A stretch of 44,426 bases of DNA from Desulfamplus sp. Lineage in GTDB: Bacteria; Desulfobacterota; Desulfobacteria; Desulfobacterales; Desulfobacteraceae. The stretch's first letter is position 1. Every line of letters begins with the position of its first letter. The position numbers and the translations under genes were made by a program. The stretch is taken from the NCBI GenBank assembly GCA_015232935.1, contig JADFYT010000002.1:1-44426 (forward strand), read 5' to 3'. This document shows positions 4,471 to 21,046 of the stretch, piece after piece. The notes beneath the pieces are model-generated. The model had not been told where the DNA came from and ran no database searches. It saw only the letters and a list, made by a program, of their open reading frames with translations.

Positions 4471-5208
4471 ATGAAATCAAATATGACAATATTAAAAATT
4501 CTGGAATATCCTGATCCGTTTTTGCTTCTCAAGGCAAAGCCGGTCGAAAATATAGACAAAGAGACCATGCGGCTCATCAAGGACATGGCGGAGACCATGT
4601 TTAATGCTCCGGGTGTAGGGCTTGCGGCACCACAGGTAGGAAGTGACAAGCGGATTATTGTTTATAATCCAAATGCACAGGCGGCGGAAAGAGCTTCTGA
4701 CTCATCAAGCTCAAGCTCTTCAAGTTCACCAAACCCTGCTGGTTCATCAAATGATTCAGATCAAGATGATCATCCACAGTTAGATAAAGATGGTTCCAGG
4801 AGAAAAAAAATCGGCAACGAGAGTTCAGACAATGACCATCCGGGTGAGCCTGAGGAGAGCTGTTCTTCTCAGACTGCTAACAGGAAAAGCAACATGGAGA
4901 GCATGGAAGAGTATAGAGCCATAATAAATCCTGAAATCATCGCGGCCTCGGGTTCTTTGATATCGGAAAACGAGGCATGTCTTAGTGTTCCTGACTATTC
5001 TGCCGATGTAAAGCGTTTCAGTAAAGTTACGGTAAGGGGATTGAATATGGATGGTAAAAAAGTTCAGTTTGATGCTGAGGATATTGCGGCCGTTATTATG
5101 CAGCATGAGATTGATCACCTTGATGGTGTCCTCTATATCGATAGAATCAGCATGTTAAAGCGGAACATGTATAAAAAAAGAGTGAAAAAAAGGTTGAAAA
5201 ATAGTTGA
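4471..5208 (+). CDS. def: Peptide deformylase with a large low-complexity insertion
   Basis: Motifs [29 protein letters not shown]; a Ser/Asp/Asn-rich segment of about 75 aa lies between motifs 1 and 2. Confidence 0.93.
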
Positions 5209-8072: not shown

Positions 8073-8828
8073 ATGCGAATCATTGCACCATCAATATTAT
8101 CAGCCGACTTTACAAAACTTGGTCAGGAACTCAAAGATGTAGAGAGTGCCGGTGCTGACTGGATACACATTGATGTGATGGATGGGCACTTTGTCCCCAA
8201 CATAACTTATGGACCCATAATCGTGGAGGCGTGCAAGAAAGCAACTGCTCTTGCGTTAGATGTCCATCTGATGATTGAAAAACCTGATCTTATGATCCCC
8301 GAGTTTGTAAACGCGGGAGCGGATCTTATCTCTGTACACGCTGAAGCGTGTACTCATCTTCACAGAACTATTCAGTACATAAAATCATTTAAGAGTGCAA
8401 GATGTGCAAATGAAAATCAGAATAATGAAGGTAGCTATAACAATGCAAATAGCCACAATGATGGAGATAGTGCCAAAAGCAGTGTCGAGCCAGAAGAGAA
8501 TTATGTAAAAGCGGGAGTTGCCCTGAATCCTGGCACTCCTTTGAGTGCCGTTGAATGGGTGATTGAAGAGGTTGATTTTGTTTTGATCATGAGTGTTAAT
8601 CCGGGATTCGGTGGCCAAAAATTCATCCCTTCAAGCCTTGAGAAGATAAAATCGCTTGCAGTCATGATAAAAGACAGAAATTCAAAGGCAATCATCCAGG
8701 TAGATGGCGGAGTAAGCCCCAAAACCATTTCCAGGATTGCCGATGCCGGAGCGACATCATTTGTTGCAGGGTCAGCCATATTCAACTCTTCTGATTACAA
8801 GGAGACCATAGATGCGTTGAGGGATTAG
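8073..8828 (+). CDS. rpe: Ribulose-phosphate 3-epimerase with an internal Asn-rich insertion
   Basis: '[14 protein letters not shown]', '[19 protein letters not shown]', '[10 protein letters not shown]', '[17 protein letters not shown]', '[11 protein letters not shown]', 'FVAGSAIF'. Confidence 0.95.
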
Positions 8829-9065: not shown

Positions 9066-9974
9066 ATGCAGATACCCATAGAAAAATATCCGGCTTATCT
9101 GGTAGTTTCTGCTACTGTTATGGAGATCAGTCCTCTTTTGAGCCGATCGACAGTATTGTCAGAGAGCATGACTCCTTCAGGAGCAAGAACAATCAAGGCA
9201 AGAATCGGCAACACTGATTTTCATTCGGTGGTAACAGGCCCTGGAGTTATAAATACAGCACATGGCCTTACTGTTTATCTGGAGCGGTATGCTTGCCATC
9301 AAAAAGGGAGTGATGAAGATAGAGATAATAATCCTCTGCTTGACATCAAAAAGTCAAACTTAAATAATCTGCTGATTATCCAGACCGGCATTGCAGGATT
9401 TTTTAAAGACTCGGGCCTTGAAATGGGGGATATTGCTGTGGCAACCTCTGAAACCTATATTCATACTGGTGTAAACAGGGAAATCTCATCCTGTTCCTCA
9501 TCTTGTTCCAGCTATCCACATGATCCACTTCCATTCGATCTTCTCCCGAACCGCCCGATGAGTCGCCAGGGGCATTTTGAATTTGACAGCAACATGATCC
9601 GGAAATCATGTGCAACTATAGAAAAAGGCTTGACTGACTTCTTTTTTTCAGCCAGCTCCCGGAGATGGACAAATCAGAATCAAAGTAATCCTTTCTGTCT
9701 CATGACAGGCAATTTTATTACAGTGTCAGCCATCACATCAACCACTGAACATGCTGACCTGCTTTACAATGCATTCAACTGTCCTTGCATGGAGTCAATG
9801 GAGGGGGCTGCATCAGCCCATATAGCAGCTCTTTACAACCTTCCTTTCATTGAGATCAGGGCAGGCTCAAATCCTGTGGGAATCAGGGATAAAAAAAAAT
9901 GGGACATACCTTTGGCCTGCCTGAACGCATCTTTTGCTCTGGAGGCACTTCTTGAAAAAGGAGAACTATCTTGA
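9066..9974 (+). CDS. mqnB: Futalosine hydrolase-like nucleosidase (menaquinone via futalosine) with two insertions
   Basis: 'VVSATVMEI', 'TGPGVINTAHGLTVYL', 'IIQTGIAGFF...LEMGDIAVATSETY', 'CMESMEGAASAHIAALYNLPFIEIRAGSNPVGIRDKKKWDI'. Confidence 0.82.
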   Translation: MQIPIEKYPAYLVVSATVMEISPLLSRSTVLSESMTPSGARTIKARIGNTDFHSVVTGPGVINTAHGLTVYLERYACHQKGSDEDRDNNPLLDIKKSNLNNLLIIQTGIAGFFKDSGLEMGDIAVATSETYIHTGVNREISSCSSSCSSYPHDPLPFDLLPNRPMSRQGHFEFDSNMIRKSCATIEKGLTDFFFSASSRRWTNQNQSNPFCLMTGNFITVSAITSTTEHADLLYNAFNCPCMESMEGAASAHIAALYNLPFIEIRAGSNPVGIRDKKKWDIPLACLNASFALEALLEKGELS

Positions 9975-14988: not shown

Positions 14989-15747
14989 ATGACAAAAATA
15001 ATAAGTGTAGCAAATCAGAAGGGCGGAGTCGGCAAAACTACTACCGCTGTTAATCTTGCAGCCGCTCTCGCACAAAAAGACAAAAAAACATTGATCGTGG
15101 ATTGTGACCCTCAGGCCAATGCCACAACCGCAATAAGAATCAACAAGTCCTCTCTTGACTACTCGTTGTATCACGGACTCATAGGAGAGGCTCAGATGGT
15201 TGATATAATTCAGCCTACCGCCATGGAGAATCTTATGATTGTCCCTTCAAATGTTGAGCTTATAGGATTTGAAGTGGAGATGATGTCAAGCAAGGGAAGG
15301 GAGGAAATTCTAAAAAAGCTCCTGGCCACGGTACATGAGGATTTTGACTATTTTGTTATTGATTGTCCTCCATCTTTAAGCCTGTTGACCCTTAACGCCC
15401 TTACAGCCTCGGATTCTGTTGTTATACCTCTGCAAAGTGAATTTCTTGCCCTGGAAGGAGTCGGCCAGTTACTCAAAACCATCAAACTTATCAAGCAGTC
15501 ATTTAATCCCGGATTGAAAATTGAGGGGATACTCATGACAATGTTTGATAAAAGGACAAATCTTTCGAGGCAGGTTGCTCAGGATGCTGAAGGATACTTT
15601 AAGGAGATGATTTTCAAAACCAGAATTCCAAGGTGTATCAAACTTGGAGAAGCTCCAAGTTATGGTATGCCTGTGATTACCTATGATCCATCTTCTATTG
15701 CCTCCTTGAGTTATCTGGCACTTGCAGAGGAGTTGATTACAAGATGA
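14989..15747 (+). CDS. parA: Chromosome partitioning ATPase ParA/Soj
   Basis: 'IISVANQKGGVGKTTTAVNLAAAL', 'LIVDCDPQANATTA', 'DYFVIDCPPSLSLLTLNAL', 'GILMTMFDKRTNLS'. Confidence 0.94.
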   Translation: MTKIISVANQKGGVGKTTTAVNLAAALAQKDKKTLIVDCDPQANATTAIRINKSSLDYSLYHGLIGEAQMVDIIQPTAMENLMIVPSNVELIGFEVEMMSSKGREEILKKLLATVHEDFDYFVIDCPPSLSLLTLNALTASDSVVIPLQSEFLALEGVGQLLKTIKLIKQSFNPGLKIEGILMTMFDKRTNLSRQVAQDAEGYFKEMIFKTRIPRCIKLGEAPSYGMPVITYDPSSIASLSYLALAEELITR

Positions 15748-16631
15748 CCATCAATGCGAAAACAGGAGCTGGAAGGAGAACCGGCCTTGGCAGAGGAATA
15801 TCCGCCCTGATTCCCGACCTTGATACTCTGGATGAAAATACCGGCGGTTTTTTCATGTGCAGGACAGATGATATAGTACCCAACCGCTTTCAGCCCAGAA
15901 CCTCTTTTTCAGAAGAGGAGCTTGAAAGGCTTACAAACTCAGTTATTGAACAGGGTATTCTCCAGCCTCTTCTTGTCAGAAAACAGAAGCAGGGGGGATA
16001 TGAACTCATTGCCGGAGAGAGGCGGCTTCGTGCCGCAAAGCGTGCGAATCTTGACCATGTCCCTGCGATTGTCAAGGATCTTACGGATGAGCAGATGCTC
16101 GAAGTCTCCATTATTGAAAATGTTCAAAGATCTAACCTTAACCCTCTGGAAGAGGCAGATGCCTACCACAGACTTATAAGTGAATTTCAATATACCCAGG
16201 AGATGGTGGCTCAGAAGATTGGAAAAAACCGATCTACCATTGCAAATTTTCTCAGACTCAGGGCATTGCCTGAGCCTGTTATGCAAAGCCTTGCAAATGA
16301 GGAGATATCAATGGGACATGCCCGTGCCATACTTGGTGCCGGCAGTGCGGAACAGCAGATAAAAACCTGGCAGATCGTAGTTGCAAAAAGCCTCTCTGTC
16401 AGGGCAACAGAGCATCTTGTGAAAAAAAATAAATTTCAGTCAGAATCCAGACAGAACTGTTCACACGCTCATGATATGGATTATATCAAAACCGTCTGTT
16501 CTGACCTTACACGTAAAATAAGCTACCCCGTATCCATCAGAAAGACAGGTGAAAAGGGCAGGGTTGAGATATTTTTTAAAGACAGCAAGGAATTTGAACG
16601 TATTATTGAACTGCTCAACAATGTGCCATGA
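15744..16631 (+). CDS. parB: Chromosome partitioning protein ParB/Spo0J
   Basis: 'GLGRGISALIPD', 'IVPNRFQPRTSFSEEELERLTNSVIEQGILQPLLVRK', 'YELIAGERRLRAAKRA', 'IIENVQRSNLNPLEEADAY', 'MGHARAIL'. Confidence 0.95.
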   Translation: MTINAKTGAGRRTGLGRGISALIPDLDTLDENTGGFFMCRTDDIVPNRFQPRTSFSEEELERLTNSVIEQGILQPLLVRKQKQGGYELIAGERRLRAAKRANLDHVPAIVKDLTDEQMLEVSIIENVQRSNLNPLEEADAYHRLISEFQYTQEMVAQKIGKNRSTIANFLRLRALPEPVMQSLANEEISMGHARAILGAGSAEQQIKTWQIVVAKSLSVRATEHLVKKNKFQSESRQNCSHAHDMDYIKTVCSDLTRKISYPVSIRKTGEKGRVEIFFKDSKEFERIIELLNNVP

Positions 16632-16685: not shown

Positions 16686-18677
16686 ATGAAAATTACCATC
16701 GCGAAAACAGCCGGGTTCTGCATGGGGGTACGCAGGGCGGTGGATATGGTATTGGACGCTGCCAACAAGACCTGCGATCCTATCTGTACCTATGGTCCCC
16801 TGATTCACAACCCTCAGGTTCTTCAAATGCTTGAGGAAAAGGGCATTCCAACCATTAACAAAATACCTGAAAAGGGTGAGGGAACAGTTCTTATCCGTGC
16901 CCATGGAGTGCCTCCTCAGGAGCAAAAAGCACTTAAAAATGCGGGGTTCAGGGTTATCAATGCCACATGCCCCAGAGTAATACGAGTTCAGACCATCATC
17001 AGAAAACATGCTGCAAAAGGCTTTGTGGCTATCATAATCGGAGATCAGGATCACCCTGAAGTCAAGGGGCTTATGGGGTATGCCCAGACTGTAAATGATG
17101 TAAAAGACAAAATTGGAAATGATGGACAGCAGGCGTGTGTCAGTGATGTAAAGAGCAGGTGCTCAAGTAATGAAAATGGCAGGAGTGCCAGTGATGGAAA
17201 GGACAGGTCTGGAGTTTATGGACAGGAGAGCTGTGGCTACACTGTATCAACAATTGAGGAGCTTGCCGTGCTGCCGGGATTTGACAAGGCAATCATTGTT
17301 GCTCAGACCACACAGGATACGGTTCTGTACCATGAGGTAAAAGAGTGGATATCACAACATTATCCACATTATAAAATATTTGACACCATATGCGACTCAA
17401 CAGAAAAGAGGCAGGCAGAGACACGAAGAATTGCCAAAGAGAGCGATGTTGTTGTTGTCGTTGGCGGCAAGGATAGCGGTAACACCCGTCGTCTTGCCCA
17501 GGTTGCCGCAGAAACTGTATCTAACAGGCCGAACAAGGCCTCTTTTGCTGTACATATTGAGGATGTGTCAGAACTTGACATGGGACGTATCTCCTGGGCT
17601 CACTCCATTGCCATCACGGCAGGAGCCTCAACCCCGAACTGGACTATCAACCAGACACTCAGATCTATTGAGAATGAACTGGAAAAGGGGAAAAATTCTC
17701 CAGTAGCCTTTATGAGGAGAATCAGAAATTTTTTGTTGAGAAGTAATTTAATCCTTTCCGCAGGGGCAGGCAGCCTCACCTACGCCTGCTCAAAAATCCA
17801 GGGAATTGACCACAATCTGATTCATGCCTTTATCTCAATGTTATACATTCTTTCCATGCAGATTCTGAACAACCTTTTTTCCATCAAATCAGATAAGTAC
17901 AATAATCCTGAAAGAGCCGAGTTTTATGACTCCAATAAAGTGGTGCTTGCTGTTGTGGCAATTATCAGCGGTGCGGCTGGCCTTTGCCTGTCATACACAA
18001 CCGGAATATTGTCATTTGTACTTCTTTCTTTCATGAGTCTGCTTGGTCTTCTTTACAACCAGAAAATTTTTCCTGACTTTTTTCCCTCGTTCTATTTTCT
18101 GGAACGCCGAATCACGAGGATAAAGGATATTCCAGGATCAAAGACCATCCTTATTGCAGCGGCATGGGGAACTGTTACATCCTTGCTGCCGGCACTGTCA
18201 ACTACCGGACAAAGTGTTGTGCTGGAAAATTCCGGTAGTATCACAATGACAGCTTCCGGAACCTCCATACTCCAGATATTGCTGGCAACCCTCACAGGAA
18301 TCTCGTTTATCATTCCGTTTGTTTTTTCTACCTCTATTGTGTTTGCACGTACAGCCTTTTTTGCAATTCTGGAAATCCAGGGCGATCGTATAACCGGCAA
18401 GGAGACAATTCCAATTATTCTGGGAGAAAAAAAGAGTCTTGAACTGATTCGCAATATGTTGCTGCTTGCATTTGCAACCCTTTTTATTTCTGGCCTGTCC
18501 GGTTTTGTCTCAATGTCAGGCATGCTCATTGCTTGTATCCCGTTATCAATACTTTATGTTATAAAATCGCATGAAAAAGGGAAAATTACTCCTGGTATGG
18601 ATCTGGAACTTATAATTGAATCCCATTTTCTTGTTGCAGGCATAATGGCAGTTTTTTTAAATCACTCAGGAATTTGA
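16686..18677 (+). CDS. ispH: IspH (HMBPP reductase) fused to a C-terminal UbiA-like membrane prenyltransferase domain
   Basis: IspH motifs: 'AGFCMGVRRAVD', 'TYGPLIHNPQV', 'RAHGVPP', 'ATCPRV', 'DHPEVKGLMGY', 'VAQTTQD', 'TICDSTEKRQ', 'SGNTRRL', 'TAGASTPNW'. From about aa 341 the same ORF continues through several TM helices with UbiA-like 'ILNNLFSIKSDKYNNPERAEF' and 'LEIQGDRITGKETIPIILGE'. Confidence 0.9.
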   Translation: MKITIAKTAGFCMGVRRAVDMVLDAANKTCDPICTYGPLIHNPQVLQMLEEKGIPTINKIPEKGEGTVLIRAHGVPPQEQKALKNAGFRVINATCPRVIRVQTIIRKHAAKGFVAIIIGDQDHPEVKGLMGYAQTVNDVKDKIGNDGQQACVSDVKSRCSSNENGRSASDGKDRSGVYGQESCGYTVSTIEELAVLPGFDKAIIVAQTTQDTVLYHEVKEWISQHYPHYKIFDTICDSTEKRQAETRRIAKESDVVVVVGGKDSGNTRRLAQVAAETVSNRPNKASFAVHIEDVSELDMGRISWAHSIAITAGASTPNWTINQTLRSIENELEKGKNSPVAFMRRIRNFLLRSNLILSAGAGSLTYACSKIQGIDHNLIHAFISMLYILSMQILNNLFSIKSDKYNNPERAEFYDSNKVVLAVVAIISGAAGLCLSYTTGILSFVLLSFMSLLGLLYNQKIFPDFFPSFYFLERRITRIKDIPGSKTILIAAAWGTVTSLLPALSTTGQSVVLENSGSITMTASGTSILQILLATLTGISFIIPFVFSTSIVFARTAFFAILEIQGDRITGKETIPIILGEKKSLELIRNMLLLAFATLFISGLSGFVSMSGMLIACIPLSILYVIKSHEKGKITPGMDLELIIESHFLVAGIMAVFLNHSGI

Positions 18678-18880: not shown

Positions 18881-21046
18881 ATGTCAAATATAAACATAAT
18901 AAAAGGCCTTGGTCTCACTGTAGGAGAGCTTGCTGTAAAACAGGCATTAATTACTTCCTCCGATCTTGAAAAAGCTGTAAGGATATGTGCCGACCTTGAG
19001 AACAGCCATGACGCTATTCCTGAATACCTGGTTGCCCAGAACCTTGTCTCTCAAAATGACTGTGAAAAGCTGATAGCGTTTGTCAGGGCAATGAAGGCAC
19101 GAGGCAAGGATATCAGGTTTGGCAATATTGCGATAGCAAAGGGATTTATTACACAATCCATACTTGAACTTGCTCTGGAGGAACAGTCCTCACTTTTTAA
19201 AAACAGGAAAAAATACACTCTTCTTGGCGATATCCTGGTTGATGCGGGAATGCTTACATCCCAGCAGAGAGATGTCATTCTTCTTGAACAGAACCGCCAC
19301 TCATCTGGCAGTGATGACTCCTCTGGTCAAGATAAAAATGGCGAATTTGACTCCGATGTCTTGCCGGCTGATGAAAGTAGCTTGCTTCAAGGTGCCGCAC
19401 CAGGTTCTTCGCGTGATTCGCTTCATAAGCACTTTGCACAATCTGAAGTGTTTCCATCTGGAATAAGACTAATTATCAAGGGTGACGGCAATGCTGCATA
19501 TCTTTTTAAAACAAAAGGTTTTAATAAGGAGATAAGCATAGGCCAGATAAAGGAACTTCTTGCGTCCCGTAATATTATACACGGTATTGCTGACAATAAC
19601 CTTATTCAGAAATTTATTGATTCTGATATTTTTTATTCAAAACCCTTTAAAATAGCTGAGGGCAATGCCCCTGTACAGGGAAAGAACGCCTCTATTCAGT
19701 ATTTCTTTACAAAAAATCGCTTAAAGGCAGGCACTATCCGTGAGGATGGCACTATCGATTTTCGTGAGAGAGGGAATATTCCCCAGGTTGAAAAAGGTGC
19801 TGTTCTGGCTGTAAAGAGAAATGCAGTTGAGGGTAAAGTTGGCAAAAATATATTTAACGATACTGTAAGGGTCATGCCTACCCGCGACATCAGGTTGAAA
19901 CCTGGCAAGGGAACGTTTCTTTCGCCAGACAAACTAAAGGTTATTGCATCTGTATCTGGACATCCCAAGCTTGCTTCAGATGGCACTATTTATGTCTATG
20001 ACACTTTTGTTGTTGAAAAGGATGTGGATTTTGAGACTGGTAATATCGATTATCACGGAGATGTCACTGTCAGGGGGTGCATTCAGAATGGATTCAAGGT
20101 AAGAGCCAACAACGTCCGTGCCACAGAGGTTGATGGTGCTACTATCATAGCACAGGGTAATGTGACCATTGAACAGGGGGTCAACGAATCAAGTATCTCT
20201 GCTCAGGGATCTCTTGGTGCAAAGTTCATTCAGAACTCCAGAATCTCATGTGTCGGGGATGTAACAACGGAAAAAGAGGTTGTGGAATCAAACATTGAGT
20301 GCAGTGGCACCTGTAATATCAAAGGGGTTATAATATACTCAAGAATATCATCCAAAATGGGTCTTTACGCGAGACAGATAGGGATGGAAAAGGCCCCTCC
20401 AAGCACCATCAGGGTTGGTACAGATACTTTCGCTGAAAGATCTTTAAAGAAGCTGCAACAGGATATTGCAGAGAAAAAAGAGTCTGAAGCGATGTTTATA
20501 GAAAATATATCCAGACTACGACAGGAAATTGAGGATGTTGAGGGTAAAATTGTTCGTTTGACCGCAATTAAAGAACGTTATGAAGACGAACGAATGGATC
20601 TTTTATCGTCTATATCGTCTATGGACACTAATCAGGATATAGAAAAAATAAAGAAAATGCAGTCTGAACTTGATCGTATTGTTAAAAACAGCACGGAAAC
20701 CAGCCGTAAACTTGCCATGTGCCACGAAAGCATCAGGGCAATCAGGCAGACTATTGCAGATACAGAACAGAAGAAAAAAGAAAATTTGACGCAGATCAAG
20801 GAGCTTTTGAAGGAAAAAGATACTCTGGTTGAATGGGTGGAGAAAAATCCTGGTATTCCAATGGTCAAAGTAGAGGGAGATATCATGGCAGGCACACATA
20901 TTTTTGGAAGATATTCTGAAGAGACCATTAAATCGAGCGTCAAGGCAGTAGTAATCAAGGAGGATCAGGTAAGCCGTTTTGGCAGAGACAGTTTTGGCAG
21001 GGAAAATGAAGCCAATTTGTGGAAAATGTATGTTACAAAGATATGA
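18881..21046 (+). CDS. FapA/DUF342 family polymerising protein with an N-terminal extension
   Basis: 'EDGTIDFRERGNIPQVEKGAVLAV...GKNIFNDTV...VYDTFVVEKDVDFETGNIDYHGDVTVRGCIQNGFKVRANNVRATEVDGATIIAQGNVTIEQGV' beta-helix region followed by coiled coil. The N-terminus has repeated 'LITSSDLEKAV' / 'FITQSILELAL' / 'MLTSQQRDVIL' motifs resembling GspE-N-like repeats. Confidence 0.8.
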   Translation: MSNINIIKGLGLTVGELAVKQALITSSDLEKAVRICADLENSHDAIPEYLVAQNLVSQNDCEKLIAFVRAMKARGKDIRFGNIAIAKGFITQSILELALEEQSSLFKNRKKYTLLGDILVDAGMLTSQQRDVILLEQNRHSSGSDDSSGQDKNGEFDSDVLPADESSLLQGAAPGSSRDSLHKHFAQSEVFPSGIRLIIKGDGNAAYLFKTKGFNKEISIGQIKELLASRNIIHGIADNNLIQKFIDSDIFYSKPFKIAEGNAPVQGKNASIQYFFTKNRLKAGTIREDGTIDFRERGNIPQVEKGAVLAVKRNAVEGKVGKNIFNDTVRVMPTRDIRLKPGKGTFLSPDKLKVIASVSGHPKLASDGTIYVYDTFVVEKDVDFETGNIDYHGDVTVRGCIQNGFKVRANNVRATEVDGATIIAQGNVTIEQGVNESSISAQGSLGAKFIQNSRISCVGDVTTEKEVVESNIECSGTCNIKGVIIYSRISSKMGLYARQIGMEKAPPSTIRVGTDTFAERSLKKLQQDIAEKKESEAMFIENISRLRQEIEDVEGKIVRLTAIKERYEDERMDLLSSISSMDTNQDIEKIKKMQSELDRIVKNSTETSRKLAMCHESIRAIRQTIADTEQKKKENLTQIKELLKEKDTLVEWVEKNPGIPMVKVEGDIMAGTHIFGRYSEETIKSSVKAVVIKEDQVSRFGRDSFGRENEANLWKMYVTKI

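Follow-up and report, generated by a model that had tools for sequence, protein, structure and literature searches.

The window analysed here is a stretch of 44,426 nucleotides from one contig of a draft Desulfamplus genome of 2.88 Mb (a MAG, 64% complete). It carries a gene in which an N-terminal IspH (LytB) is joined, in one chain, to a C-terminal UbiA-like membrane domain (Table 1). The uninterrupted 663-codon ORF of the original prediction was confirmed; the coordinates given with it, 17706-18677, hold for the UbiA half (residues 341-663), but the whole fusion extends over 16686-18677 on the forward strand.

Table 1. Positions of the fusion gene, its domains and motifs, and other genes discussed in the text
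Feature	Position	Strand	Basis or remark
ispH-ubiA fusion gene	16686..18677	+	663 aa, single ORF; one open frame across family and phylum
IspH (LytB) domain, 4-hydroxy-3-methylbut-2-enyl diphosphate reductase, residues 1-330	16686..17675	+	Pfam, Foldseek, active-site residues
Low-complexity insert in IspH, residues 141-179	17106..17222	+	pLDDT <50; alignment
UbiA-fold membrane domain (predicted), residues 341-663	17706..18674	+	Pfam, AlphaFold2, PDB fold matches
Degenerate first Asp motif NNLFSIKSD	17868..17894	+	N395 kept, S399 at D72 position, D403 at D76 position
Fused-family signature IKDIPGSKT, loop preceding TM5	18117..18146	+	Alignments
Second Asp motif AILEIQGD	18363..18386	+	E563 at D198 position, D567 kept
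parA and parB	14989..16631	+	NCBIfam; conserved upstream neighbours in Desulfobacteraceae, context only
FapA-domain gene	18881-21046		PF03961, PF20250; downstream neighbour
mqnB	9066-9974		Futalosine hydrolase model
def (peptide deformylase)	4471-5208		In-frame insert
rpe (ribulose-phosphate epimerase)	8073-8828		In-frame insert

The IspH half is complete, as predicted. It matches PF02401 (LYTB) over residues 3-328 (5.2e-79, 265.7 bits, cut-off 24.5) and TIGR00216 with 240.1 bits (cut-off 187.85), and its top Foldseek match is the IspH structure 3dnf (E 1.9e-19). The Fe-S cysteines C12, C95 and C236 and the substrate residues H41, H73, H123, E125, T208/T209, S264, N266 and S315 are present and invariant across 45 aligned fusions. 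The fused gene is the only PF02401 gene found in the 64% complete MAG, which also encodes IspG and a polyprenyl synthase, and it is the sole ispH in all 40 good fused genomes checked; where two ispH rows appeared in each of two Desulfamplus genomes, they represent one frame in pieces, split by an insert. Given that the fusion is the only ispH found, it very likely has the predicted HMBPP reductase activity, and the IspH of this organism is probably essential. The low-complexity insert in the IspH of the window is Ser/Asn/Asp-rich, in frame and, among the aligned sequences, confined to Desulfamplus, with lengths that differ between close relatives. Similar in-frame inserts were seen in def and rpe, each breaking the family match into two stretches; all three genes encode conserved housekeeping enzymes.

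The prediction of a UbiA-like second domain was likewise upheld. PF01040 matched residues 362-626 when the whole chain was searched (9.1e-13, 48.5 bits, cut-off 34.2) and the UbiA half alone at 1.1e-11, while NCBIfam gave weak matches to several prenyltransferase models and nothing stronger. Since PDB sequence searches with the UbiA half or its profile returned no real match, we relied on fold comparison. AlphaFold2 gave a pTM of 0.80 for the whole chain, a model in which the relative placement of the two domains is not reliable (no inter-domain error given), and 0.89 for the UbiA half. The best PDB fold match of this half was ApUbiA (4od4, TM 0.76 by target length), followed by DGGGP synthase (7bpu) and AfUbiA (4tq4), and the UBIAD1 chain of the complex formed with HMG-CoA reductase (8djk chain B) appeared lower down. 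The fold alignments to the archaeal UbiA proteins have 11-17% sequence identity. On these models, the second half of the fusion has the UbiA fold, contrary to the possibility, raised beforehand, that it does not.

In AfUbiA, Mg is bound by N68, D72, D198 and D202. GPP no longer binds to the N68A and D72A mutants and binds 45-fold and 21-fold more weakly to D198A and D202A, respectively; Y139 is needed too, and E. coli MenA with equivalent mutations loses all or nearly all function (PMC4106721). We assigned the corresponding columns from a sequence alignment in which identity with known UbiA proteins is low but both motif blocks are gapless. By this alignment, the window protein retains N395 (N68), D567 (D202) and Y457 (Y139) and has S399 instead of D72 and E563 instead of D198. 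The canonical first Asp motif (the N68 and D72 equivalents) is thus represented by N395 only, and ExxxD (E563, D567) stands where the second would be DxxxD. Both motifs quoted in the original prediction were found, N395-N-L-F-S399-I-K-S-D403 and E563-I-Q-G-D567; the first is indeed atypical in having S399 at the first Mg-binding Asp, but the N at its second position is not unusual in itself, since crystallised ApUbiA has it too (NNIADLDID).

Of 155 fused-domain sequences, 147 have the equivalent of N68, 151 that of D202, 152 that of Y139, 60 that of D72 and 64 that of D198. We separated from these a 63-row set comprising the loci of a named-genome scan plus the window, nearly all from Desulfobacteraceae. 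Within it, Asp occupies the D72-equivalent position in none and the D198-equivalent in four, whereas all four ligands are retained in 29 of the 92 sequences outside the set, so the degenerate site, as read from the alignments, is a trait of the family and no quirk of the window's genome. At this alignment level it is shown that the window's lineage has lost two of the Asp positions that serve as first-shell Mg ligands in the classical site. The D76 position carries Asp in 62 of the 63, Glu stands at the D198 position in the window's genus, and QGDRxxGKET, N395 and Y457 are strongly conserved in the fused domain. The Asp of the family may have shifted by one helical turn, from the D72 to the D76 position, where it might compensate for the lost D72 and give an altered yet active site. 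A degenerate ligand set is no proof of inactivity, since human UBIAD1, with the motif NTYYDFSKG, is enzymatically active although it lacks the third Asp, the D76 equivalent (PMC9314443). One unfused relative that the profile picked up (G112:C6, L132) is simply another UbiA, with canonical motifs. L201 marks an extreme of the degeneration series: its IspH carries a C-terminal membrane domain in which neither a UbiA motif nor a Pfam match can be recognised; the UbiA domain is extremely decayed in L131 as well.

The IspH-UbiA fusion is of old date and widely distributed within its phylum. A search with the UbiA half gave matches in 78 of the family's 86 genomes (41 of the 42 good ones; 13 of the 14 genera), for the most part within open frames of about 560-665 aa, and eight of the nine other genomes of the genus carry the fusion in one frame of 589-665 aa. 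With an alignment of the UbiA half as query, matches were found in 146 of 394 genomes sampled from the phylum (102 of 245 genera), nearly all in frames of at least 567 aa, and a search among relatives, all within the phylum, gave matches in 321 of 388. The named-genome scan returned 67 loci, almost all from Desulfobacteraceae; the few distant fusions (L095, L097 and L098) came from Desulfobulbales-like genomes. A sequencing error between the domains had been put forward as grounds for refutation, and the idea that misassembly or a frameshift artificially joined two genes has next to no probability: the same open frame recurs in hundreds of independent genomes, which refutes it, and nothing was found in its favour.

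Pairwise dN/dS values were 0.09-0.32 for the UbiA half and 0.07-0.23 for the IspH half, showing that both halves are under purifying selection and that the UbiA half is constrained. Genomes without the fused domain mostly encode a plain IspH of about 280-350 aa, and no stand-alone remnant of the UbiA domain was found in them at the search threshold. In the IspH tree (a quick tree, with some rows on long branches), eight plain Desulfobacterales sequences group with fused ones in a clade of 24 rows (SH-aLRT 96); judged by the starred branches, the tree as a whole requires a minimum of three state changes. Given this nesting of plain IspH within a fused clade, the phylogeny shows an ancient fusion whose UbiA domain was later lost in several Desulfobacterales. 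By eye, the gene downstream of ispH in the plain-IspH genomes L210, L212, L215, L216 and L217 often reads like ribosomal protein S1, an order that mirrors the known IspH-RPS1 fusions, and in two Desulfobacterales without the UbiA domain (L203 and L208) ispH is followed by polyprenyl synthase-like and dxs-like genes.

In Desulfobacteraceae, the fusion gene follows parA-parB (neighbour clusters present in 59 and 52 loci of the family), and a FapA-like gene often comes after it. The FapA-domain protein downstream in the window has an MshE-type cyclic di-GMP motif, and a relative of its gene directly follows the fusion in about 40 Desulfobacteraceae loci. Outside the family, the fusion often comes after a tlyA-like gene, with dxs ahead in some cases; ftsY and similar genes were also encountered. 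Inspection of the neighbours of the fused loci found no conserved acceptor-pathway gene.

Quinone prenylation is the commonest role of UbiA proteins, and the original prediction linked the fusion to menaquinone synthesis through mqnB. This link proved weak. The mqnB gene (114 bits to the futalosine hydrolase model, just under the equivalog cut-off) does lie within the window, as do ORFs that read by eye like dsrA and dsrB, but five genes and about 6.7 kb separate it from the fusion downstream, of which it is no conserved neighbour. The window's genome also has a separate UbiA-family gene, on contig C82, with complete NxxxDxxxD and DxxxD motifs and all classical ligands (E 1e-31 to ApUbiA), next to a gene reading like UbiX; at least one further UbiA-family gene was present in all 40 good fused genomes tested. 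Judged by its motifs, this separate gene is a better candidate for quinone prenylation than the fusion. With the degenerate site added to this gene and to the context of mqnB, we rejected menaquinone synthesis as the main role, and a menaquinone-synthesis prenyltransferase coupled to IspH is very improbable. An active prenylation step also appears less likely than originally assumed, given that in this lineage the fused domain is predicted to lack residues that AfUbiA and E. coli MenA cannot do without.

We propose that the cell's IspH is tethered to the cytoplasmic membrane by its C-terminal UbiA-fold domain, which would keep the fold and part of the diphosphate site and would no longer be a canonical Mg-dependent prenyltransferase in Desulfobacteraceae; we put the probability of this reading at roughly 0.5. 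IspH would then make IPP/DMAPP at the membrane face. The cavity and a partial diphosphate site (N395, D403, E563, D567, Y457 and the family-specific PGSK loop) are probably retained, and the most likely task of the domain would be to hold IspH at the membrane; it may in addition bind an isoprenyl diphosphate, for example reporting its level to IspH. A stronger version, drawn by analogy, would make the domain in Desulfobacteraceae a pseudo-prenyltransferase: by binding a prenyl diphosphate it would control how active or how stable the attached IspH is. We consider this version unlikely.

Some observations argue against the proposal. The strong conservation of QGDRxxGKET, N395 and Y457 looks, in the alignments, like retained chemistry, and roughly one in three members from outside the family retains the complete set of four ligands. 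Both also favour a true bifunctional enzyme, with an active UbiA prenyltransferase and an altered metal site, as hypothesized by Rao et al. 2015; it would perhaps take its DMAPP donor directly from IspH, or use a longer prenyl diphosphate produced close by. The near-universal Asp at the D76 position and the Glu at the D198 position in the genus agree with such an enzyme, AfUbiA has been crystallised with DMAPP bound (4tq4), and the dxs and tlyA neighbours of other lineages fit an MEP-pathway unit. However, the D72 equivalent is lost across the family set, a substitution that leaves AfUbiA unable to bind its donor, the UbiA domain was lost several times, and no conserved acceptor-pathway gene adjoins it, so that we regard a bifunctional enzyme as a tentative and rather doubtful alternative. 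Repeated loss would also suit a relic that serves as a hydrophobic anchor only, without a ligand, as would the extreme decay in L201 and L131. Such a bare anchor would have no need of specific polar residues, yet these are among the most conserved positions, and the low dN/dS over the UbiA half speaks against it too; it therefore seems improbable. Returning to the tethered IspH, the combination of a sole IspH, family-wide ligand loss and repeated clean domain loss makes the question of function directly testable, with ligand-lacking fusions, four-ligand fusions and sister lineages with plain IspH available as comparable lineages.

As an architecture the fusion is known, and the window adds a further member. 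In the passages of Rao et al. 2015 considered here (PMC4746011), 47 IspH-UbiA fusions are described from Desulfobacterales, with a UbiA part of type PT_UbiA_5; they share with the window protein the domain order (IspH N-terminal, UbiA C-terminal, one chain) and the sulfate-reducing Desulfobacterales as hosts, and the coupling of precursor supply to prenylation is already hypothesized there. A text search of a limited literature collection found no later functional study of the fusion. Rao et al. credit the UbiA part with two DXXXD repeats, whereas the classical ligand positions are largely substituted in the window's family, which tempers that statement. Relative to those passages, the present analysis adds the sole-copy ispH, the separate canonical UbiA, the degenerate site and the domain losses.

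Compared with ApUbiA (4od4/4od5), AfUbiA (4tq3/4tq4) and DGGGP synthase (6m31/7bpu), the window's UbiA half has the same predicted fold and the same position of both Asp motifs, but these archaeal proteins carry the Mg ligands, of which it keeps only part. In the IspH-RPS1 fusions (PMC4746011), IspH is likewise the N-terminal partner in one chain; there the partner is ribosomal protein S1, which is soluble, and here it is a membrane protein. The UBIAD1-HMG-CoA reductase complex (PMC9314443, PDB 8djk) likewise brings a UbiA-fold protein into physical union with a reductase from isoprenoid synthesis, although that system consists of two separate animal proteins and works through regulated degradation, whereas the fusion is one chain. 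Sensing of GGpp has been reported for UBIAD1-HMGCR (PMC9314443), and for the fusion it is a possibility only. If the UbiA domain senses prenyl diphosphates, it would provide a feedback point in the MEP pathway, and a pseudo-prenyltransferase acting on IspH would correspond, in bacteria and within one chain, to the UBIAD1-HMGCR feedback loop, but on the other isoprenoid pathway.
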